Assembly (NCBI GenBank): GCA_026391975.1
Contig: JAPLDB010000083.1
Coordinates: 1 to 34,216 of the forward strand
Reading direction: 5' to 3'
From: Bacteroidota bacterium
GTDB taxonomy: Bacteria; Bacteroidota; Bacteroidia; AKYH767-A; 2013-40CM-41-45
DNA length: 34,216 nucleotides
Both the position numbers and the translations under genes were made by a program. Shown here piece by piece: positions 606-29,793 of the stretch (position 1 is its first letter; each line of letters opens with the position of its first letter). The notes under the pieces were generated by a model. The model did not search any database. It was not told the origin of the DNA and worked only from the letters and a program-made list of their open reading frames with translations.

Positions 606-2135
606 TCAGGATTTAATAAATTTTCCGCGCAGCGTTTTTGTATTGCCTGTAATTTCAATCCAATACATTCCGGAAGATAGAAATGTAACATCGAATGATA
701 TTTCCTGATTTTTGCTGTCAGGGTTTTCCTGCACAGAAAATACTTTATCGCCAATCATATTATAAACCGAAATCTCAATGGCTGTTCCATTTGTGACTTG
801 TGACTTTTGAATTTTGACTTCGTCACTGACCGGATTCGGGTACAAATGTACTCCCTCTCCTTCGGAGAGGGCAGGGGTGAGGCCCGCTATCACATCAAAA
901 ACCGCTGCCTCCACTTCACATCCATTTCCATCTGTCGCCACCACATTGTAATCGCCTCCATTTGGAGCCACATAAAAATAATTTGTTGCTCCGGGAATAA
1001 GCGCTCCATTGTAATACCACTGGTAACTCACCGAGCCCTGGTTCGAAAACAATGTGTCACCGCTTTGCATGATTCCCTGCGGAGCAGGATATGGATACAC
1101 AGTGATAAAATTATTCAGTGTAAGCGTATCATTCGTGATTGCATTGGTAGCAATTAGTTGTACAGAATAGGTCCCCGGAGTATTGTAACAGACCGTAGAA
1201 GGATTAACATCTGTGCTTGTAGAGGGTGTTGCACCGCCAAATGACCACAGGTAAGAAGTTGCGTTCTGTGACAGATTGGTAAAGTCTGTGCAAGTGCCCG
1301 GACAAATATGATTGTCAGCAGTTGTGAAAACAGCAATGGGGAACATTCCACAAGGATCCATAGTGACTACAATGGTATCACTTGATGTTCCGCAGAATCC
1401 CTGGTTTGTGGAAATGTAGGTTCCGGAATTTTGAACTGTAATTTGTTGCGTTGTTTCGCCTGTACTCCAGCTGTATGATTGAAATCCATTTCCTGCAAAT
1501 AGAATCGCCGAGTCACCAATGCAAACAGTAAGTGAATCATCGCCAAGATCGGTTATTGTTTCAGCGCAGAGATTTAGCACCATGCCTGATCCATTGAAAG
1601 AATGAATGATAAGGTATTCGTCACCGGCCTGTGCAGGCGTAGCAGTAAAAGAGAACTGATGTGTTTCCCATGCATATCCAGCAGGAATAAAATCCCCGAC
1701 ATAATTTCCAGTGCTGAATCCTGTTGCGTTTGTGTAAACTGAAGGCGCAAAGGCGCCATTGCTTCCCAGTCCAACGCTTACATAAGTAAAGAAAAAGTGA
1801 TAGGTGTTACCGGCGATGAGGGGAGGTGAAAATTTCAATCCGTATCCTTCTCCACCTGTGGTCCACACCGCTGAATCTCCCATCCATATCGCCCTCACCG
1901 GTGGCGTATTGCAGGGAGGAGGGAGGTTCACGTTTGCGCCTGACCACGCTCCGTTCCATACAGCACCGGTCCATTCCATGAGGTCGGCATCATTGGCATT
2001 TACGAGTGTTGCAGAGCCAAAAAATGTTGTTGATGGAGTAGCTGAAGTATAGCATGAATCAAGAATACTTTGTGCGTTGGATTTACAAATAAACAGGACA
2101 AAAAGAACGGCTAATAATGACAATACTTTTTTCAT
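606..2135 (-). CDS. Secreted PKD/Ig-like protein with T9SS type A sorting domain (A)
   Basis: Predicted cell-surface or secreted protein of 509 residues. A Sec signal peptide (1-22, ending SNA-Q) is followed by an N-terminal domain of about 170 residues that I do not recognise, an Ig-like segment (about 200-260, with YSWSTGETTQ), a PKD domain (about 265-348), an Ig-like segment with YQWYYNG (about 355-412), and a sorting domain from LYPNPV (431) to the end. The C-terminal 245 residues are nearly repeated in the three upstream genes. It is the last gene of a four-gene minus-strand operon, with its start 12 bp after the stop of gene B. The linker and first loop of the sorting domain are encoded by dispersed repeats (853-871 and 794-820). 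The function of the N-terminal domain is unknown. Confidence 0.85.
   Translation of the reverse strand: MKKVLSLLAVLFVLFICKSNAQSILDSCYTSATPSTTFFGSATLVNANDADLMEWTGAVWNGAWSGANVNLPPPCNTPPVRAIWMGDSAVWTTGGEGYGLKFSPPLIAGNTYHFFFTYVSVGLGSNGAFAPSVYTNATGFSTGNYVGDFIPAGYAWETHQFSFTATPAQAGDEYLIIHSFNGSGMVLNLCAETITDLGDDSLTVCIGDSAILFAGNGFQSYSWSTGETTQQITVQNSGTYISTNQGFCGTSSDTIVVTMDPCGMFPIAVFTTADNHICPGTCTDFTNLSQNATSYLWSFGGATPSTSTDVNPSTVCYNTPGTYSVQLIATNAITNDTLTLNNFITVYPYPAPQGIMQSGDTLFSNQGSVSYQWYYNGALIPGATNYFYVAPNGGDYNVVATDGNGCEVEAAVFDVIAGLTPALSEGEGVHLYPNPVSDEVKIQKSQVTNGTAIEISVYNMIGDKVFSVQENPDSKNQEISFDVTFLSSGMYWIEITGNTKTLRGKFIKS
794..820. repeat. Heptamer repeat inside the sorting domain of gene A
   Basis: About four 7-bp units of the form TGACTTK/TGAATTT, read on the minus strand as KIQKSQV. 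The same heptamer family occurs at the matching place in genes B, C and D, and between genes at 18259-18327 and 31089-31116. Confidence 0.7.
853..871. repeat. 8-bp-stem palindrome in the linker before the sorting domain of gene A
   Basis: CCCTCTCC-TTC-GGAGAGGG followed by GCAGGGGTGAGGCC. It is translated on the minus strand as the linker ALSEGEG. Matching copies lie in genes B (2416-2434, one arm mutated), C (3809-3827) and D (5924-5942), and a related hairpin lies between genes at 32420-32436. Confidence 0.75.
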
Positions 2136-2147
2136 GAAAAGTCGCGT

Positions 2148-3524
2148 TTATTTTTTCTGAAATTTGAAATGAATTATTTTTTCACCTGTATTAAACTCAA
2201 GCAAATACAATCCGGAACTAAGCGAAGAGACATCTAAGGTGATGTCCTGACTCGGATCATTTGGTTCTGCAAAACTGGAGAAAACTCTTTCACCGAGCAC
2301 ACTATATATCGAAATCTCAACGGTCCGAGGGACTCCTTGCGGAGCTGTTTCGCTTTTAACTTTTGACTTTTGAATTTTGACTTTATCCTTGACCGGATTC
2401 GGGTACAAATGTACTCCCTCTCCTTCGTAGAGGGCAGGGGTGAGGCCAGCTACTACATCAAAGATCACCGCTTCCACTTCGCAGCCATTTCCATCAGTCG
2501 CAACCAGATTGTAATCGCCTCCATTCGGAGCCAAATAAAAATAATCTGTGGCACCTGAAATAACTACTCCGTTGTAATACCACTGATAACTGACTGCTCC
2601 CTGGTTGGCAAATAATGTATCGCCAACTTGCATGATACCCTGTGGCAATGGATAAGGGTATACAGTAATGTAATTGTTCAGCGTGATGGTATCGCTTCCC
2701 AAAGAATTTGATGCGATGAGCGAAACAGCATAGCTGCCTGGAGTCGGGTAGCAGATATTGGAAGGATTTTCGGAAGTACTTGAATCGGGACTGGCCCCCG
2801 GAAATGTCCATATGTATGAAGTTGCATTCAGCGAAAGATTGGTGAAATTAGTGCACGTGCCGGGGCAAATATGATTTACCGAATTAAACAGCGCAACAGG
2901 AGGCAAAATGCCAGAAGAGAAACCGAACATCGGCCTTGCTGTAGTTGCTGATGCATTGGAAGAAGTATCGGCATCAGCATACTGAACTATCGGTACACCT
3001 CCATTATCAGCATAAAAAGGATCAGGATATGAACAACTGGTATAGCGAATCTGAACCACAAGATTATCCGTTCCATTATAATTGAAAGTGCTGATCGGAA
3101 TTCCACTCCATTTATCAGCAGGAACATTCCATGTACCGGGCAAAGTATTGTAAACATATAGAGGAACGCTTAAAACTACTTGTGGAACTCCTGAATTAAA
3201 ATTAGCGGCAAAGTTGGGTATGGGTACAGAGAGGGTAGAATGCCCGATGGTTATTTCAAGATTTGCAATGGACATAGATGATGAAGTATTGCTCCTGAAA
3301 TATATTGAATCGAATGTTAGAGCACCATTGACTCCCGAAGTCATTGATGCGAGCTCTGACTGTGTATAAATGAAAATAAATTTTTTGCAAACGCCATCAT
3401 TAAAAAAAAGATTGTTGACTCCTACATTCCCGGGAATATGATAATAATGTTGAGGCGTTTGTGGGAATAACTGTAAACCTGAGAATAAAAAGAACAGAAT
3501 GGAAATTGTTATTTTTAATGACAT
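2148..3524 (-). CDS. Secreted PKD protein with T9SS type A sorting domain (B)
   Basis: Predicted surface protein of 458 residues. I place the start at the ATG at 3524 (MSLKITISILFFLFSGLQ), which opens a good signal peptide ending in FPQ and sits one base after the stop of gene C. The longer frame to 3674 only reads the end of gene C in another phase. An N-terminal domain of about 190 residues (beginning YYHIPGNVGVNN) is not recognised. It is followed by the PKD domain with CPGTCTNF, the YQWYYNG Ig-like segment, and the sorting domain (LYPNPVKDKVKIQKSKVKS onward). Its first sorting-domain loop carries the heptamer array without the 18-bp palindrome found in C and D, so it serves as the repeat-free comparison. 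An extra APQGVPRT segment comes from another repeat (2321-2346). Confidence 0.83.
   Translation of the reverse strand: MSLKITISILFFLFSGLQLFPQTPQHYYHIPGNVGVNNLFFNDGVCKKFIFIYTQSELASMTSGVNGALTFDSIYFRSNTSSSMSIANLEITIGHSTLSVPIPNFAANFNSGVPQVVLSVPLYVYNTLPGTWNVPADKWSGIPISTFNYNGTDNLVVQIRYTSCSYPDPFYADNGGVPIVQYADADTSSNASATTARPMFGFSSGILPPVALFNSVNHICPGTCTNFTNLSLNATSYIWTFPGASPDSSTSENPSNICYPTPGSYAVSLIASNSLGSDTITLNNYITVYPYPLPQGIMQVGDTLFANQGAVSYQWYYNGVVISGATDYFYLAPNGGDYNLVATDGNGCEVEAVIFDVVAGLTPALYEGEGVHLYPNPVKDKVKIQKSKVKSETAPQGVPRTVEISIYSVLGERVFSSFAEPNDPSQDITLDVSSLSSGLYLLEFNTGEKIIHFKFQKK
2321..2346. repeat. Short imperfect palindrome in the sorting-domain loop of gene B
   Basis: CGGTCCGAGGGACTCCTTGCGGAGCT is translated on the minus strand as APQGVPRT. 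Gene C has a related copy at 3699-3724, while genes A and D go straight from SETA or TNGTA to the next strand without it. Confidence 0.6.
2353..2385. repeat. Heptamer array in the sorting-domain loop of gene B
   Basis: Units CTTTTAA, CTTTTGA, CTTTTGA and ATTTTGA in tandem, read on the minus strand as KVKIQKSKVKS. It is the uninterrupted counterpart of the arrays in genes C and D, which are split by a palindrome. Confidence 0.7.
2416..2434. repeat. Mutated copy of the CCCTCTCC hairpin in gene B
   Basis: CCCTCTCCTTCGTAGAGGG: same place and frame as in gene A (linker ALYEGEG), but one base in the right arm is changed (GGAGAGGG to GTAGAGGG), turning Ser into Tyr and weakening the stem. Confidence 0.7.
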
Positions 3525-3525
3525 A

Positions 3526-5625
3526 CTATCTTTTGATAAAAGGTGCACGGAAAATATTTTCATTGAACGAAGCTTCAATCCAATACATCCCGAAGGAGAG
3601 AAATGTAACATCGAATGATATTTCCTGATTTTTGTTATCAGGATTTTCCTGCCCAGAAAATACTTTATCGCCAATTATATTATAAATAGAAATCTCAACG
3701 GTCCGAAGGACTCCTTTCGAAGCTGTTTCACTTTTAACTTTTGTCCCGATAGCCATCGGGATTTGAATTTTGACTTTATCATTGACCGGATTAGGGTACA
3801 AATGTACTCCCTCTCCTTCGGAGAGGGCAGGGGTGAGGCCCGCAACCACATCAAACACCGCGGCTTCCACTTCGCATCCGTTTCCATCAGTCGCCACCAC
3901 ATTGTAATCACCTCCATCCGGAGCCACATAAAAATAATCTGTAGCACCTGAAATAATTACTCCGTTGTAATACCACTGATAACTGACTGCTCCCTGGTTT
4001 GCAAATAATGTATCGCCAACTTGCATGATACCCTGCGGAGGTGGGCTTGGATAAACTGTTATATAATTCGCAAGGAATAATGTATCACTTGAGTTAGTGT
4101 TTGATGCGATCAGTTCAACATCATACGTTCCGGGAGTATTATAACAGATGCCGGTTGGATTAACATCTGTACTCGTCGAAGGCGTTGCTCCTGCAAAACT
4201 CCATAGATAAGTTATGCCATTCAGGGATAGATTGTTGAAGTCAGTGCAAGTGCCGGGGCAAATGTGATTCGGCGCATTGAAAAGTGCAACAGGAACGGAA
4301 ATACAAGCGGCACAAGTGCTGTCAATTTTAAATCTCCAAAGATCATTGCATGGCCCCGTTGCTGAGTTATATCCGCCAAACATATAGAGGTTGCCGTTGT
4401 TGTCGATACCGCCGATGGAACCAAATCTTCCATCCGGTTTATTCGCAGGACTTGAAACACCCATCGTTCCCCAGTTTCCCGGAGCATTGGTTACATTATC
4501 TCCGCTCACCCATGTCCATTCATTTTTTGTTACGCAATATTTCCAGAGATCATTTCTGACAACACTTACAGATGTATTGTCTCCGCCACCGAACAACCAG
4601 AAGTTTCCTTCATTGTCTGTCCAGGACGTACGGTTTTCCCAGCGTGCACCGGGAACATTCAGACTGTCTGTTAAACACTTTGTTCCGTAAACACCTGATG
4701 CGCCTGCCGTGTTGCTTCCTGAAATCCACGCCCAGCTATTTGTGGACGGATTGTACCGCCAGAGGTCGTTGTAAGATACTGTTGCACTTCCACCAAACAA
4801 CCAAAAATTTCCCGCAACATCTTTCCATTTAGCATAGCACATTCTGGCGCCGGGTGTATTCAATGGATCTTCTATTCCTTTCGTACCATATACCGCAGGC
4901 ATTCCTGTCGACTGTGAACCCTGCATCCAGGTCCATTCATCTGTTGCAATATGGTAACGCCAGAGATCATTCAACATGCCACCAAGTGTTCCGCCAAATA
5001 ACCATAGATCACCGGCTGCATCGGTCCATGTTACTGACGTTTCCCATCTGCCGGAAGGATTGTTTAATACTGATGGCACTCCCTGTACTCCATAAGTTCC
5101 TGTGTTGCCGGGTGTATTCGGACCTTTTATCCATGTCCATTCATTTGTTACAACATCAAACTTCCAGAGATCATTGTAGCCGCTATAACCACCAAACAAC
5201 CAAAGGTTGCCCTGGTTGTCTGTCCATGATGGTGTGCTGGCCCTGCTTGGCGGATTATTGGTAGGAGATGAAATTCCCATTGTACCGTAGTTTCCCGGAT
5301 CATTGATCACTCCCGGACCTTTCATCCAGGTCCACATGTTAGCTACCGGATCATATTTCCAAAGGTCATTGTAAAAATTCGCAGCTGTGTATCCTCCGAA
5401 TGTCCAGAAGTTTCCATTCGGGTCACTCCATTCGCATGCTTCATAAACTCCCGGTGGTTCATTGGTTGGACTTGGAACGCCCTGCACCCCATAGTTACCG
5501 GTGCTGAAAGGTGCAATGCTTCCATGCATCCATGTCCACTCTCCTGCTTGTGCGATCGCAAAAAGAAAACTGCAAAATGAAAATTGAAAAACAACGATCA
5601 ATTTCAGGAGGGCAGACTTTCTCAT
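3526..5625 (-). CDS. Secreted kelch-propeller protein with PKD and T9SS sorting domain (C)
   Basis: Predicted surface protein of 699 residues. The signal peptide is at 1-25 (about FAIAQA). Six kelch-type repeats follow, each with a W(L/T)FGG turn, NDLWKY or NDLWRY and a W-T-W strand, such as LWLFGGYSGYNDLWKF; six blades fit one beta-propeller, a fold usually used for binding. After this come the PKD domain with CPGTCTDF, the YQWYYNG Ig-like segment and the sorting domain. The gene starts 27 bp after gene D and ends one base before gene B. Its sorting domain has two extra in-frame pieces compared with gene A: IPMAIGT from an 18-bp palindrome and ASKGVLRT from a second palindrome. Ligand unknown. 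Confidence 0.87.
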   Translation of the reverse strand: MRKSALLKLIVVFQFSFCSFLFAIAQAGEWTWMHGSIAPFSTGNYGVQGVPSPTNEPPGVYEACEWSDPNGNFWTFGGYTAANFYNDLWKYDPVANMWTWMKGPGVINDPGNYGTMGISSPTNNPPSRASTPSWTDNQGNLWLFGGYSGYNDLWKFDVVTNEWTWIKGPNTPGNTGTYGVQGVPSVLNNPSGRWETSVTWTDAAGDLWLFGGTLGGMLNDLWRYHIATDEWTWMQGSQSTGMPAVYGTKGIEDPLNTPGARMCYAKWKDVAGNFWLFGGSATVSYNDLWRYNPSTNSWAWISGSNTAGASGVYGTKCLTDSLNVPGARWENRTSWTDNEGNFWLFGGGDNTSVSVVRNDLWKYCVTKNEWTWVSGDNVTNAPGNWGTMGVSSPANKPDGRFGSIGGIDNNGNLYMFGGYNSATGPCNDLWRFKIDSTCAACISVPVALFNAPNHICPGTCTDFNNLSLNGITYLWSFAGATPSTSTDVNPTGICYNTPGTYDVELIASNTNSSDTLFLANYITVYPSPPPQGIMQVGDTLFANQGAVSYQWYYNGVIISGATDYFYVAPDGGDYNVVATDGNGCEVEAAVFDVVAGLTPALSEGEGVHLYPNPVNDKVKIQIPMAIGTKVKSETASKGVLRTVEISIYNIIGDKVFSGQENPDNKNQEISFDVTFLSFGMYWIEASFNENIFRAPFIKR
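3699..3724. repeat. GTCCGAAGGACTCCTTTCGAAG palindrome in gene C
   Basis: Imperfect palindrome (CGAAGGA / TCCTTTCG arms) translated on the minus strand as ASKGVLRT. It is related to 2321-2346 in gene B and sits at the same point of the sorting domain. Confidence 0.6.
3744..3761. repeat. 18-bp palindrome splitting the heptamer array in gene C
   Basis: TCCCGAT-AGCC-ATCGGGA. On the left is CTTTTAACTTTTG and on the right TTTGAATTTTGACTTT, the two halves of the array that is continuous in gene B. Against gene B it replaces ACT, a net gain of 15 bp, so the frame is kept. It encodes IPMAIGT. Confidence 0.8.
3809..3827. repeat. CCCTCTCC hairpin in gene C
   Basis: CCCTCTCC-TTC-GGAGAGGG, identical to the copies in genes A and D and in the same place, coding for the linker ALSEGEG. 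Confidence 0.75.
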
Positions 5626-5652
5626 TTTGATTTAGACTTTATTACTGCATAC

Positions 5653-7521
5653 TTAATTGCCGGAAGATTTTATGAATTTGCTGCGTAGCGACTTAGTATT
5701 GCCTGTGACTTCAATCCAATACATACCGGAGGAGAGAATAGTAACATCGAATGTTATTTCCTGATTTTTGCTGGCAGGATTTTCCTGCATAGAAAATACT
5801 TTTTCGCCAATCATATTATAGATTGAAATTTCAACGGCTGTTTCACTTTTAACTTTTGTCCCGATAGCCATCGGGATTTGAATTTTGAATTTATCCTTGA
5901 CCGGATTAGGGTACAAATGTACTCCCTCTCCTTCGGAGAGGGCAGGGGTGAGGCCCGCTACCACATCAAAGATCGCTGCTTCCACTTCGCATCCGTTTGC
6001 ATCTGTTGCCACCACATTAAAATCGCCTCCATTCGGAGCCACATAAAAATAATCTGTAGCACCCGGAATGAGTGTTCCACTGTAATACCACTGATAACTC
6101 ACAGACCCCTGATTGGCGAAAAGTGTATCCCCGCTTTGTGCAATTCCCTGAGGAGCAGGATATGGATAAATGGTGATGAAATTATTTAATGTAAGTGTAT
6201 CGCTGCCCACTGAATTGGTTGCAATAAGAGATACGGCATAAGTTCCGGGCGAATTGTAACAAATATTGGTCGGGTTCATATCAGTACTGGTGGATGGATT
6301 CGCTCCGGCAAAAGTCCACAGGTAAGTTGTACCATGTTGTGAATGATTTGTAAAGTCTGTGCAGGTGCCCGGGCATAAATGATTCGGGGATGTAAACAAT
6401 GCCACCGGTGTCAGCGGTGTAAGTCCGCTGATTGCATTGGGCAGACCAATGTTTGTTGTGTTGTTCAATGTAAAACCATTGCGTACGTAATTGCAACCAA
6501 TACCTAGCACATCGGGATCATTGATCACGCCAAGTGATGTACTGCCGGAATGGGAAACGTAAATTTTATTATCGCTTGCGATCTGGATGGCGCCGGAGCG
6601 TTCGGTAGCATCATCATCCAGCACAGTTCCTGTCGCAACAATTGCTGCAGTACTTCCTGCAAGCATGTCAAACTGAAAAAGTTTTGACGGAACATAGTCA
6701 CCGCTCATCATGTAAAGCACATTACCGGTAGCGGAAAATTCCACTCCATACATTACATCTTGTGCCGGTGCTGTATAAGTAGCAGGATTTGAAACCATTC
6801 CTGTTGCAACATCAAAGTCGGCAATTTCTCCTGCATATTCGTCGTACATCGCTCTGGCAATGTGTGTTCCGGCAGGCGAAATTTTCATGCAGCCGATAAA
6901 ACTATCGAATGCTGAATACAACGGACCCACATTTGAAATGACAGGCGCTCCGACTCCGGCTGCCGTGAGCGGGTAGGAGTAGTATGCATTTGACGTGCTG
7001 CTCGGACCATGAGATACAATCCAGAAACCGGTGCCTGCAGCATTTCTGATGCCGGTAACTTTTTCGTCACAGGCAGTGAGCAGTTGTACGTTCTTTACTG
7101 CTGAGACATCTCCAAGACCTCCGTTCAATGTCATGTCAACGATGGAATACCTTAATCCGTCTGATCCAACAAAACCATCGGTGGTAAAAATGTAGTACTG
7201 GTTGCTATTTGCGGGATCACTTACGATGAGGGCTGATTGCGTTGATGAATAGTCCCCGAGCAATCCTGTGCCGTTGGGCATTATACTATGTGTCTGATCA
7301 TACACCGTTTGACCATCAGTATAAAAGAGCAGATTTCCGGCCCCGTCACTGATGGAAGAACATCCTTCGTTGGTATTCAGCATTCCGCCGTTTAAGTTTA
7401 CCGGACTGCCGCTTACAAAACTTACACCGGCATTGGATCCAAAATACCAATTATCGAATTCATGTTGTGCAGATAAAGTTTGTACGCTCAGTATGCTGAG
7501 TACGAGTAGAAGTTGTTTCAT
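5653..7521 (-). CDS. Secreted propeller-like PKD protein with T9SS sorting domain (D)
   Basis: Predicted surface protein of 622 residues, the first gene of the four-gene operon. I choose the ATG at 7521 (MKQLLLVLSILSVQTLSAQ), a clean signal peptide, over the in-frame ATG at 7545, because a strong promoter match at 7543-7573 would put the upstream ATG at or before the transcription start. The mature N-terminus has a repetitive beta-rich domain of about 360 residues (NWYFGSNAGVSFVSGSPV, then GCSSISDGAGNLLFYTDG), typical of Bacteroidota surface propellers. It is followed by PKD, the YQWYYSG Ig-like segment and the sorting domain. The sorting-domain loop carries the palindrome-split heptamer array seen in gene C but lacks the GVLRT segment. 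Ligand unknown. Confidence 0.86.
   Translation of the reverse strand: MKQLLLVLSILSVQTLSAQHEFDNWYFGSNAGVSFVSGSPVNLNGGMLNTNEGCSSISDGAGNLLFYTDGQTVYDQTHSIMPNGTGLLGDYSSTQSALIVSDPANSNQYYIFTTDGFVGSDGLRYSIVDMTLNGGLGDVSAVKNVQLLTACDEKVTGIRNAAGTGFWIVSHGPSSTSNAYYSYPLTAAGVGAPVISNVGPLYSAFDSFIGCMKISPAGTHIARAMYDEYAGEIADFDVATGMVSNPATYTAPAQDVMYGVEFSATGNVLYMMSGDYVPSKLFQFDMLAGSTAAIVATGTVLDDDATERSGAIQIASDNKIYVSHSGSTSLGVINDPDVLGIGCNYVRNGFTLNNTTNIGLPNAISGLTPLTPVALFTSPNHLCPGTCTDFTNHSQHGTTYLWTFAGANPSTSTDMNPTNICYNSPGTYAVSLIATNSVGSDTLTLNNFITIYPYPAPQGIAQSGDTLFANQGSVSYQWYYSGTLIPGATDYFYVAPNGGDFNVVATDANGCEVEAAIFDVVAGLTPALSEGEGVHLYPNPVKDKFKIQIPMAIGTKVKSETAVEISIYNMIGEKVFSMQENPASKNQEITFDVTILSSGMYWIEVTGNTKSLRSKFIKSSGN
5859..5876. 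repeat. 18-bp palindrome splitting the heptamer array in gene D
   Basis: TCCCGAT-AGCC-ATCGGGA, the same sequence, position and frame as 3744-3761 in gene C, giving IPMAIGT. The flanking heptamers are CTTTTAACTTTTG and TTTGAATTTTGAATTT. Confidence 0.8.
5924..5942. repeat. CCCTCTCC hairpin in gene D
   Basis: CCCTCTCC-TTC-GGAGAGGG, the same as in genes A and C, coding for ALSEGEG ahead of LYPNPV. Confidence 0.75.
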
Positions 7522-7542
7522 AAAGGTTTGAAATTGTTTTCT

Positions 7543-7573
7543 CAAACCTACACGATTTTTGCTGAAAAGGCAA
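7543..7573 (-). promoter_or_regulatory. Promoter of the four-gene secreted-protein operon
   Basis: On the minus strand TTG (7573-7571), 20 bp, then TAGGTTTG (7550-7543), a full match to the Bacteroidota TTG-N19/20-TAnnTTTG pattern. Transcription would begin near 7536, about 15 bp before the chosen ATG at 7521. The stretch 7543-7560 is 17/18 identical to 14073-14090 upstream of the hybrid kinase. Confidence 0.65.
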
Positions 7574-9226: not shown

Positions 9227-10255
9227 ATGGAACAGAAGATAAAAAAGTTGATTTCAGAAGTTGAAAGCTTCACTGCATCTGTAAAAGATGATGTGGAAGC
9301 ATTCCGCCTGAAGTACCTTTCGAAAAAAGGGATCATTCCTTCGCTCTTCGGGGAGATGAAAAATGTTTCTCCGGAGGAAAGGAAAAACTTCGGACTGCTT
9401 GTCAATGACCTGAAGAATAAAGCAGAAGAAAAACTGAACAGCTTCCGTGAATTGCTTGAATCCTCCGAAGGTCAAAAAGAAGTTCCTGATCTTTCTCTTC
9501 CCGGCGAACCCAAAAGCCTTGGAGCAAGGCATCCGATTTCTATCGTTCGCCGGCGCATACTTGAAATATTTTCACACATCGGATTTACGGTTGAATATGG
9601 TCCTGAGATCGAAGACGACTGGCACAATTTTACTGCATTGAATTTTCCGGAGAACCATCCTGCCCGCGATATGCAGGATACTTTTTTTATCCGCAGCGGT
9701 GAGTCCAGCAAAGATGATATTGCATTGCGTACGCATACCTCATCTGTACAGGTACGCATCATGGAAACGCAAAAGCCACCTATCAGGATCCTTGCCCCTG
9801 GCCGTGTGTACAGGAATGAAGCAATTTCTGCAAGGGCACATTGTTTTTTTCACCAGGTGGAGGGATTGTATGTAGACGAAGGCGTTTCATTTGCTGATCT
9901 CAAGCAAACACTGATGTATTTCGCTAAAGAAATGTTCGACGCTGATACAAAGATCCGACTGCGTCCGAGTTATTTTCCATTCACCGAACCTTCAGCAGAA
10001 ATGGATGTGTCGTGCAACATCTGCAGCGGTAAAGGATGCAATGTTTGCAAATACACAGGATGGCTTGAAATTCTTGGCTGCGGAATGGTAGATCCAAACG
10101 TTCTGGAAAATTGTAAAATCGATTCGAAAAAATATACCGGTTTTGCTTTCGGTATGGGCATTGAGCGTATTGCCATGTTGAAATACAACATCAACGACTT
10201 GCGTCTTTTTTCAGAAAATGATGTCCGGTTCCTGAAGCAGTTTATTTCTGCTTAG
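9227..10255 (+). CDS. pheS: Phenylalanine-tRNA ligase alpha subunit
   Basis: Class II aminoacyl-tRNA synthetase subunit that, with PheT, charges tRNA-Phe in the cytoplasm. The 342-residue length is normal. The coiled N-terminal arm is at about 1-90, followed by the catalytic domain with NFPENHPARDMQDTFF (motif region near 140-155), HTSSVQVRIM, GRVYRNEAISARAHCFFHQVEG (motif 2) and GFAFGMGIERIAMLKY (motif 3, near 303-318). A Cys cluster, CNICSGKGCNVCKYTGW, sits before the last strands, as in many bacterial PheS. pheT is not adjacent, which is usual in Bacteroidota. The start is close behind the inverted-repeat element, so the promoter may lie in or before that element. Confidence 0.97.
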   Translation: MEQKIKKLISEVESFTASVKDDVEAFRLKYLSKKGIIPSLFGEMKNVSPEERKNFGLLVNDLKNKAEEKLNSFRELLESSEGQKEVPDLSLPGEPKSLGARHPISIVRRRILEIFSHIGFTVEYGPEIEDDWHNFTALNFPENHPARDMQDTFFIRSGESSKDDIALRTHTSSVQVRIMETQKPPIRILAPGRVYRNEAISARAHCFFHQVEGLYVDEGVSFADLKQTLMYFAKEMFDADTKIRLRPSYFPFTEPSAEMDVSCNICSGKGCNVCKYTGWLEILGCGMVDPNVLENCKIDSKKYTGFAFGMGIERIAMLKYNINDLRLFSENDVRFLKQFISA

Positions 10256-10258
10256 TAC

Positions 10259-10354
10259 ATCCTCACATCTTCCCATCCTCCCATCCTCACATCTTCACAT
10301 CTTCCCATCCTCCCATCCTCCCATCCTCACTTCTTCACATCTTCCCATCTTCAA
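10259..10354. repeat. Tandem array of twelve 8-bp units
   Basis: Period-8 array of ATCYTCMC (ATCCTCAC, ATCTTCCC, ATCCTCCC and so on) starting 4 bp after the pheS stop, decaying into CT-rich sequence up to the HPt stop. It fills the gap between two convergent genes, with no palindrome. The units are too short and spacerless for a CRISPR. Confidence 0.85.
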
Positions 10355-10374
10355 ATCCTCTTCCCGTCTTCAAA

Positions 10375-10719
10375 TCAAATAGCCGCTTTCAACTCCACCA
10401 TCGCCTGATTGCAAAGCACAGTGAACTCCTCAAGCATTTTCGGAAGACTTTCTACGTCAATTTTCTCAGCAGCATGCCTTTCAATTTTTTTGATCATGTC
10501 TTCTCCTGCCTTAATACCCATATAGGTGATCTGCGGTTTGAGCGCGTGAGCCGTGCCTCGCACTGAATCGTAATTGCCTGAAGCAAGATGCGTTCTCATA
10601 AGTTCAAGTTGTCCCGGACACATCTGTAAAAAAATGCCGATGTACTTTGCTATTTTATCTTTATTGCCTCCTGTAAAGGATTGTAAAAAAGTGAGGTCAA
10701 TTGTTGGGGTGTCTGACAT
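10375..10719 (-). CDS. Histidine phosphotransfer (HPt) protein
   Basis: Cytoplasmic phosphorelay carrier of 114 residues made of a single HPt four-helix bundle. The phospho-acceptor is His58 in GTAHALKPQ, followed by the expected small and basic residues (Lys61, Pro62); YMGIKAG (66-72) matches the Gly-containing turn of HPt domains. It lies 5 bp after the secreted propeller gene, itself overlapping the hybrid kinase, so the three genes should be one transcript. The natural partner is the C-terminal receiver of that hybrid kinase. The final acceptor is not evident: the only stand-alone receiver nearby (14434-14814) has no output domain. Confidence 0.85.
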   Translation of the reverse strand: MSDTPTIDLTFLQSFTGGNKDKIAKYIGIFLQMCPGQLELMRTHLASGNYDSVRGTAHALKPQITYMGIKAGEDMIKKIERHAAEKIDVESLPKMLEEFTVLCNQAMVELKAAI

Positions 10720-10724
10720 GATTG

Positions 10725-12431
10725 TTAGTTTTTTTGAATGATTATTTTTTTAATGATCTCAGAGGTGGAAGTGGTGAGTTTGAGGAAGTAGATTCCGGAA
10801 GGCAGTTGTGAAACATCGAGGTCGATAGGCTCCCGATAGCTATCATTAGGCAAGGAAACAGCCAAAACCATTTCACCAAGCAGATTATTAATGGAGATTG
10901 CACTAATTGTATATTGTCTACTGTCTACTACCAACTTGCTGCTTGCCGGAATTGGATACACTTCAATTTCTTCTTCATTATTGTCAGATACTTGTATGTA
11001 CAAACAAGCATCCTCCGCATTCAAGTTCCATACAAGGGAATTTGAAACAACGATGTTTTCAGAAATGCCTTGCGTTTGTGTGAACGCCAGCGTTTGTGTA
11101 ATAAAATTTGTCGTGTCAATTAGCGGATGCGCATTCTGCTCATGGCAACCGCTGTATCCTGAAGAATCAGTACGTATCAGCATCATTTGTGTGCTGTCTG
11201 TGGTATTCGTGTAACTTGTAGTGAAGCCCGGCATCAGGTAGCCGCCGTCATCCATTTTCGAAAAGTGAAATGCTTCGTCCTGCGCACCGTCACCATATGT
11301 GCGTGTCCAGAGTGTGTCTCCGGCAGCATCCACCTTCATCAGGAAAATATTTGTGCTGTCATCTCCTCTGTCATTAGACTGAATATCAGAAATTGATTTG
11401 CGCAGACTAAAATCATTTGCGTGTATTTTTTTTGTTGCAGATTCTTGTCTTGCCAATCTCATATTATGCCCGTAACCAAGGCTGTTTGAATATCCTGATA
11501 CTACGATTGAGCCATCGTTGTTCTCTCTTGCAGTATAACCCGCATCAGTCTTCGCGCCGCCATAAGTTTTTCCCCAGATGATGCTTCCGGATGTATCTGT
11601 CTTCATCAGTAAAATATCAAAATCACCTTGTCCGAAGCTGATGGTAGAACCGCTGATCAGGTAATTGCCATCCTGAAGTTTTATGATCCCCGCACCTTCA
11701 TCCCAAAGGGATTCTCCGTAAGATTTTGTCCAAAGCAAGTTTCCCTGTGAATCAGTTCGCATCATCAGAATATCTGATTCTCCTAGTGTCTGTGTAAATG
11801 TTTTGCCGATGATAACAAAACCGCCATCGGAAGTTTGCAGCATTTCAACGCCCTGGTCATCTCCGTTGCCGCCATAGGTTCTTGTAAATAAAGTATCTCC
11901 GTTTGAATCAGTCCGGATGAGCAATACACGCTTCAATCCTGTTTCGCGTGTGTAGCCGGTAATTGCATAACCATTGTCTGATGTTCTGATAATGGCACTT
12001 GCAACATCAAGATCTGCCGTAGAAAAAGTTTTTGACCATTGCATTGATCCCATGCTGTCTGTTTTGAAAAAGTACAGATCATCAAGCGTATTTCCATTGT
12101 AACTTTTTGTGGAACCTGCATACACCAGGCCACTGTCTGAAGACAATGTCATTGCCCCGGCAACATCATAATTCACTCCGCCAATGGCATGCGCCCAGAT
12201 GACTTCACCATCATCATCCAGTTTCATGATCACAGGGTCAGCGGATCCGCTTCCGGTGGAAGTTGTTGCGCCGAGATAATAGATCCCTCCGCCGGGACAG
12301 GGAAAAGCCACAAGAGAAATTTCCTGATTAATGCCACCATAAAAATGCTGAAATGCCTGTTGTGAAAACCCGCTCCTGCCTAAAGATAAAAAGCAGAGAA
12401 AAAAAAATAAACGCGGTAAAAATTTTGTCAT
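10725..12431 (-). CDS. Secreted repeat-propeller protein with T9SS sorting domain
   Basis: Predicted surface protein of 568 residues. The signal peptide is at 1-23 (SGFS-QQ). About seven repeats of roughly 50 residues follow, each with a D-x-x-G-x-x-x-W-x-K-x-Y-G strand and a DGG/DNG-x-x-x-x-G strand (for example [24 protein letters not shown]), a beta-propeller pattern. The sorting domain starts at [10 protein letters not shown] and ends [10 protein letters not shown]...KKIIIQKN. Its ATG overlaps the stop of the hybrid kinase (ATGA, 12428-12431) and the HPt gene follows 5 bp later, an odd place for a secreted protein. One blade holds a 35-residue insertion (11361-11465), and the sorting domain contains repeat-derived pieces (10831-10844, 10909-10933). 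Ligand unknown. Confidence 0.85.
10831..10844. repeat. TCCCGATAGCTATC half-element in a sorting domain
   Basis: TCCCGATAGCTATC corresponds to most of the TCCCGAT...ATCGGGA palindrome, with the right end lost. It is translated on the minus strand as DSYRE between LPN and PIDLDVSQ, a different loop from that hit in genes C and D. Confidence 0.5.
11361..11465 (-). other. 35-codon in-frame insertion in one propeller blade
   Basis: The blade reads [10 protein letters not shown], then about 35 residues beginning [13 protein letters not shown] and ending SNDRGD, then DSTNIFLMK. The preceding blade reads [17 protein letters not shown] with nothing between. The extra part is basic and polar, unlike the Gly/Asp/Thr-rich blades. 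The limits are given to the codon only approximately. It may be a coding dispersed repeat. Confidence 0.55.
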
Positions 12432-14189: not shown

Positions 14190-14304
14190 GCCACGAATTG
14201 CACTAATTTACACTAATCAATTGCCGGATTTATACTTCGTGTTAATTAGTGATCCCGATGGCCCCGCCTGAATGACGTAGTCGGGCAGCTATCGGGATGG
14301 TGGC
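14190..14304. repeat. GCCAC...GTGGC element interrupted by a second palindrome
   Basis: The sequence GCCACGAATTGCACTAATTT...TTAATTAGTG parallels the element at 14344-14407, but before the closing GTGGC it contains 47 bp bounded by ATCCCGAT (14252-14259) and ATCGGGAT (14291-14298). The inner piece uses the same arms as the palindrome inside genes C and D. Confidence 0.65.
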
Positions 14305-29509: not shown

Positions 29510-29538
29510 TTAGTCGTTACGATAGCTATCGGAATAAT

Positions 29539-29562
29539 CCCGTCCCGATGCTTCGGGACGGG
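29539..29562. repeat. CCCGTCCCGA-TGCT-TCGGGACGGG hairpin
   Basis: Perfect 10-bp stem with a 4-base loop (29539-29548, 29553-29562). It shares the TCCCGA/TCGGGA core with the palindromes in genes C and D and at 14252-14298. Confidence 0.7.
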
Positions 29563-29793
29563 ATCTCTGGTTTAATACCTCGTCTAGCCTAGGGCAAGAC
29601 GAAAAATCAATATTCAAATTGATACCTAGAAGCTCTGCTTCGGGTTATTCATTAGGAAAAGCAGGCACGTTTTTTTATTAATTCTATTGAAGATACCTCC
29701 AGCCGGACCTTCATTTTAACAAGGCCTTTGCACTATCAGAATTTTGTTATATTTTTATCGGGGGATCAATTTTACGTAAATTCATAGATAATT

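Follow-up and report, generated by a model that had tools for sequence, protein, structure and literature searches.

The 18-bp palindrome TCCCGAT-(AGCT)-ATCGGGA is probably a very short, non-autonomous, mobile (selfish) repeat of Bacteroidia, which would be placed in trans, 18 bp taking the place of 3 bp, and of which the tolerated copies would survive. The 3.61-Mb draft genome under study (239 contigs; gene calls are based on open frames and codon usage) contains 81 copies of TCCCGAT-N4-ATCGGGA and none of a reversed-pattern control, and thus has the genomic excess on which the original prediction hinged. When up to two mismatches to the consensus are allowed, the number rises from the 81 copies with exact arms to 98, and therefore few copies have damaged arms. 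The stems are far better conserved than the loops: there is hardly any variation in the arms, whereas the central 4 bp differ between copies, AGCT being present in 52 of the 76 that were read together with their flanks. The flanks of these 76 copies revealed no longer conserved body beyond the 18-bp unit, and the full palindrome appears in no paper of the literature searched.

The distribution among genomes is patchy. Copies were found in 32 of 61 genomes of relatives (own genome included), with 0-93 copies per genome, and in 90 of 392 genomes drawn evenly from the phylum, the highest counts being in the same class. A viral origin was rejected, since the exact palindrome is rare in viral contigs (37 stretches among 2.9 million), and a search for plasmid relatives of the T9SS genes gave no match. 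Three copies at L324:473, 608 and 743 (contig C213) are spaced 135 bp apart and belong to a tandem repeat; GCCCGCCT...CGGGCAGGC encloses each of them.

In the window, that is, the whole stretch of 34,216 nucleotides that was analysed, the exact palindrome has two matches, compared with 0.06 expected from shuffles (Table 1). Both are exact and positioned as stated at the outset, and they lie in two of four tandem paralogues (genes A-D), each of which encodes a T9SS sorting domain (Pfam PF18962). The heptamer array of gene B, CTTTTAA CTTTTGA CTTTTGA ATTTTGA, is indeed continuous, and alignment of genes C and D to it on the outer flanks showed TCCCGATAGCCATCGGGA in place of ACT, which confirms the claimed exchange of 3 bp for 18 bp and changes the peptide KIQ-KS-KVKSETA to KIQ-IPMAIGT-KVKSETA, with a net gain of five codons. 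Because the uncommon AGCC loop and the position are common to both copies, they probably go back to one array-splitting insertion in an ancestor of genes C and D, followed by gene duplication. Two further claims held in part. Palindrome arms do occur between genes, but in a nested form, TCCCGATGGC-CCCGCCTGAATGACGTAGTCGGGC-AGCTATCGGGA, which was also found at loci L012, L015 and L037. The supposed half copy at 10831-10844 does lie in a sorting domain, but it is a decayed full copy with three mismatches.

Table 1. Palindrome copies, heptamer arrays and sibling genes in the window.
Feature	Position	Strand	Remarks
Palindrome copy in gene C	3744..3761	.	TCCCGATAGCCATCGGGA; encodes IPMAIG(T) in frame (- strand), in loop 1 of the sorting domain
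Palindrome copy in gene D	5859..5876	.	Identical to the gene C copy, same loop
Decayed palindrome TCCCGATAGCTATCATTA	10831..10848	.	In frame (PNDSYRE), sorting-domain loop 2 of gene 10725-12431
Nested intergenic palindrome	14253..14297	.	Second palindromic sequence (CCCGCCTGAATGACGTAGTCGGGC) splits its centre
Empty site, unbroken heptamer array in gene B	2353..2385	.	Joined gene C flanks match 27/28, with ACT for the palindrome
Gene C heptamer array, split by palindrome	3731..3777	.	
Gene D heptamer array, split by palindrome	5846..5892	.	
Gene A	606..2135	-	PKD and T9SS sorting domain, without palindrome
Gene B	2148..3524	-	PKD and T9SS sorting domain, array without palindrome
Gene C	3526..5625	-	Kelch and T9SS sorting domain, with palindrome
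Gene D	5653..7545	-	PKD and T9SS sorting domain, with palindrome

The window also contains other repeats. Each of the four sorting-domain genes has a palindromic repeat of the form CTCCCTCTCC-TTCG-GGAGAGGGCAGGGGTGAGGCC, exact or slightly altered (851-884, 2414-2447, 3807-3840 and 5922-5955), which is translated as LTPALSEGEGVHLYPNP, and the type recurs at other loci of the genome. An in-frame repeat of the GGTCCGAAGGACTCCTTTCGAAGC type (APQGVPRT/ASKGVLRT) is present in gene B (2322-2345), in gene C (3700-3723) and at L004, and is missing in genes A and D. An 8-bp tandem array (CCATCCTC/ACATCTTC) at 10249-10376 directly follows a phenylalanyl-tRNA synthetase alpha-like gene, and a larger, related intergenic palindrome, TCCCGTCCCGATGCTTCGGGACGGGA, with two nested stems that have TCCCGA/TCGGGA in common, is located at 29538-29563. 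A search of the window for known RNA families found none.

To derive the footprint of insertion, the two flanks of a copy were joined and matched to uninterrupted counterparts, for which about 0.38 Mb of the genome was used; these empty sites are paralogous repeats within one genome, not allelic sites. The best fit was the replacement of 3 bp by 18 bp in 17 of 23 unique cases (23/28 or better), and in 34 of the 76 copies at 22/28 or better, compared with 2 for swapped flanks. The 3-bp replacement is also found outside heptamer arrays, namely in tRNA relics, 8-bp arrays and nested palindromes, and the counterpart of one tRNA T-loop copy matches at 28/28. In 12 of 25 distinct contexts the three bases lost are A-N-T, and the flank profile has R at -1 and Y at +1, plus a weak TTC/GAA. 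The net gain of 15 bp per insertion keeps the reading frame. In a genome of another family (G048, 50 of whose 93 copies were read) the replaced length is 3-6 bp, with no fixed 3, and therefore the footprint differs between genomes. Inverted complementarity of the flanks did not exceed that of swapped pairs, and hairpin loops as a general target were rejected.

A symmetric cut with a 3-nt stagger and loss of the overhang would give the 3-bp replacement. An extension of this idea, possible though rather doubtful in our judgement, would make the palindrome a distinct minimal type of mobile DNA: an enzyme would cut R^ANT^Y symmetrically with a 3-nt stagger, drop the overhang and seal in the bare 18-bp hairpin, so that every insertion would add 15 bp and diversify secretion signals and enzymes. 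Alternatively, the palindrome could be a miniature of a DDE transposon that makes 4-bp target-site duplications, and in two genomes the flanks do contain more 4-bp direct repeats than swapped flanks (z 7.8 and 6.4). However, this signal is explained by the arrays themselves, because a 7-bp array that has lost 3 bp looks as if 4 bp had been duplicated (7-3). Outside heptamer contexts, the empty counterparts reveal a loss of 3 bp and no duplication, and thus a 4-bp target-site duplication was rejected; moreover, no transposase with TCCCGATAG ends was seen when half-site pairs were screened within the loci read. A DDE miniature is therefore highly improbable.

Movement as a REP-type element, by a RAYT or IS200-like HUH transposase (Y1_Tnp) that recognises the hairpin in single-stranded DNA, has more in its favour. 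The genome encodes a homologue of REP-associated tyrosine transposases (L028) with intact NHYH and YVHQNP motifs, one palindrome copy has a degenerate Y1 gene 44 bp away, and Y1 genes are present in all 19 genomes with at least five copies, compared with 33 of the 42 others (rank correlation between Y1 and copies 0.35, P 0.006, ignoring phylogeny). In addition, atypical flanking hairpins that recur in the host genome have been described for subclass 2.6 TnpA-REP of Bacteroidetes (PMC6006769). Nevertheless, the genome's own RAYT gene is flanked by other hairpins (ACCCGCTGGGT and GATCCCG-AAAAGC-CGGGATC) and not by the repeat, the nearest copy of which is 2.7 kb away. In relatives, 28 of 30 Y1 loci have no copy within 1.5 kb, and the hairpins next to their Y1 genes have a different layout. 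The flank profile lacks a GTAG- or CGTC-type tetranucleotide at the foot of the hairpin that could serve as a GTAG-like guide, and insertion of a single strand does not predict a symmetric 3-bp replacement. On balance, mobilization by a RAYT is unlikely, and no gene was linked to the element in this analysis.

Some features of the Y1 genes deserve mention in their own right. The degenerate gene (L027:194-580, contig C209) is of the IS200 type, with a degraded HUH motif (EVH) and the usual tyrosine replaced, and is flanked by a CCCACGGT-TTAA-ACCGTGGG hairpin. In relatives, the Y1 genes of L070, L076, L087, L090, L091 and L094 have flanking hairpins that share one layout, with stems of at least 8 bp that mostly start with CC and differ from each other, and with a TGAA, TTTA, TAAA or TTAA loop; these are probably the REP-like ends of those genes.

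About 59 of the 76 copies are intergenic. The sequences that they split there are tRNA gene relics, other palindromes and short arrays, the units of which are many and unrelated. In the neighbourhood of tRNA-Leu(taa), palindromes interrupt three partial tRNA-Leu copies, with the intact tRNA-Leu between them; the palindrome replaces the D-loop AAC in one and the T-loop ATT in another, and all three have nested palindromes in the anticodon region. This region (L015:1480-2660, contig C57) also contains two small GIY-YIG endonuclease ORFs, located between the tRNA copies, and resembles a copied, tRNA-associated mobile unit. The cluster prompted a closer look at GIY-YIG endonucleases, which were rejected as a candidate: the C57 pair alone is near copies, while five other GIY-YIG genes are not. 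Relics of this kind occur in two different families, with the palindrome in the T-loop of a tRNA-Leu relic at L044:2334 and in the D-arm of tRNA-like relics of G048 at L159:1555 and 1626, adjoining intact tRNA-Leu and tRNA-His genes.

The palindrome could also be a functional site spread by selection, for example a transcription terminator, an operator or an mRNA-stability hairpin. The 7-bp hairpin is stable (-9 to -11 kcal/mol), and copies lie between convergent genes more often than between divergent genes (9 versus 4 pairs). However, a T-tract follows 8 of the 76 copies, which is no excess over the background of 12.7%, and an intrinsic terminator was rejected on this ground. A functional site also fits poorly with the patchy occurrence among related genomes and with copies in tRNA relics, within coding regions and at the centre of other repeats, which makes spread by selection for such a role very unlikely.

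The presence of the palindrome in tRNA relics and in housekeeping enzymes also means that it is not the peculiarity of T9SS genes that it had first seemed to be. The further claim, that the element tolerates coding sequence, was substantiated, as 17 of the 76 copies are in-frame parts of genes; sorting-domain loops hold eight of them and other sites nine. A call at L001, which precedes what is probably the true start of the gene for ribosomal protein L11, was left out of the 17. Outside sorting domains, copies were found in ValS, PyrD, RfbB, HutI, SucB and a heptosyltransferase (family-9 glycosyltransferase), at the N-terminus of AtpB, in one signal peptide and at one C-terminus.

As judged from alignments, conserved genes really do carry extra residues at palindrome copies. 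ValS has about 33 residues more than the solved enzyme, the alignment to which ends at residue 204 and resumes at 239; the palindrome falls within these additional residues. In PyrD, a segment of 72 residues, compared with 44-56 in relatives, has the order array-palindrome-array (LEVKSQKTEVKS-HPDGYRE-LEVKSKK). The RfbB segment comprises 41 residues versus 31-33 in 71 of 74 other orthologs, which were used since PDB entries alone, one solved homologue having a long loop there, were uninformative; among the three other long orthologs, that of L183 has an array-like insert in the same loop. The inserts of PyrD, ValS and RfbB include extra array sequence besides the palindrome. In ValS (L010:881-3016) two more repeats of intergenic type are in frame: a heptamer array, SKFEIQNSKFKI, and a repeat of the CCTCTCC palindrome type, PHPLPLSP...GGKGEGS.

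The palindrome can be read as SR*LSG, PDSYRD or xPIAIGx, and the first of these frames contains TAG when the loop is AGCT, the commonest one. The three coding copies in this frame have the rare, stop-free loops GGCT, GGCT and CGTT. All copies in the TAG frame are therefore free of stops, which points to selection against broken genes rather than to frame-aware insertion.

Within genes, the palindrome is found preferentially in T9SS sorting domains, and a second family shows this preference independently. The genome encodes at least 150 sorting domains, which make up about 1-2.5% of its coding DNA, and 8 of the 17 coding copies lie in them (two in the window, two at L022 and one each at L004, L036, L043 and L066), compared with 0.2-0.4 expected (P < 1e-7). 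Counting the copies of genes C and D as one event still gives P = 4e-7 for seven when domain length is set to the larger estimate. Of the 11 coding copies of G048, 4 sit immediately before the YPNP start of sorting domains, and one of them, just upstream of the domain start at L150, encodes IPMAIGT and looks like an independent insertion.

This recurrence in and next to sorting domains could suggest that the insert was selected for altering protein sorting or display. However, all three frames and two different loops are in use (IPxxIG, PDSYRD, SRWLSG), unrelated enzymes also hold copies, and paralogues without the palindrome look equally intact, which leaves selection for a sorting function hardly credible. 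The cause of the preference is likely tolerance, loops and linkers accepting DNA much as spacers do. In the predicted structure of the gene D domain the insert lies in the lowest-confidence loop, between two strands; for the other proteins exposure was judged by alignment alone.

Taken together, these results favour a mobile repeat subject to selection for tolerated copies. An actively mobile palindrome would be put by a dedicated enzyme acting in trans at short A/T-centred sites, with the consensus R-ANT-Y in this genome, where the 18-bp hairpin would take over the place of 3 bp, possibly after a symmetric cut. All kinds of intergenic DNA would serve as landing sites, including heptamer arrays, other palindromes and tRNA relics. 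Within genes, survival would be limited to insertions that leave the protein working and would thus be close to neutral for it. Copies would accumulate in T9SS sorting domains because 15 bp are frame-neutral and because the loops of these domains would be the most permissive coding sites. Points that count against this reading are the variable footprint in G048, the paralogous nature of the empty sites, the failure to link any gene to the element and the additional array sequence in the inserts of PyrD, ValS and RfbB.

The known home of in-frame palindromic repeats in conserved genes is the Rickettsiales, hosts that are hard to handle. The defined footprint of the present repeat (3 bp lost, R-ANT-Y) makes the mechanism of insertion and its cost to proteins testable. 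T9SS sorting domains emerge as a coding region about as open to foreign DNA as spacers are, and palindrome inserts can mislead ortholog alignment and the annotation of T9SS proteins.

Several known systems bear comparison. Like REP/REPIN sequences with their RAYT, the palindrome is a short, high-copy hairpin repeat, mostly extragenic, in a genome that encodes a RAYT homologue. It differs in being a perfect 18-bp palindrome without a GTAG/CGTC-type tag, in having in-frame coding copies, and in that other hairpins flank the RAYT gene. Bacterial MITEs (RUP, ERIC, Correia/NEMIS) are likewise small, non-autonomous repeats, some of them fused in frame to genes, but their terminal inverted repeats enclose a body and their target is duplicated, whereas the palindrome has no body and takes the place of target bases. 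Heptanucleotide arrays, for example TAACTGA repeats, are known from Beggiatoaceae, Cyanobacteria and Bacteroidetes (PMC4679880), and the arrays that host many copies are of this general kind, yet the palindrome is a separate unit that splits arrays of many different sequences.

The closest behaviour is that of the palindromic elements of Rickettsia (RPE) and Wolbachia, which occur between genes, in RNA genes and in frame in conserved protein genes, in exposed loops and without a known transposase (PMC2229807, PMC3767692, PMC10969869). The likeness to Rickettsia elements that had been proposed for the sorting-domain copies thus holds, as intergenic copies and in-frame copies in conserved genes (17 of 76) occur side by side here as well. 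Nevertheless, the palindrome is set apart from RPE by length, clade and footprint: RPE comprise about 100-150 bp and belong to Rickettsiales, whereas the present element, of 18 bp and from Bacteroidia, has near-invariant arms, replaces about 3 bp rather than duplicating its target, and prefers T9SS sorting domains. Behaviour of the RPE kind is thus found in another phylum, in a far shorter element with copies in many genomes of its class.
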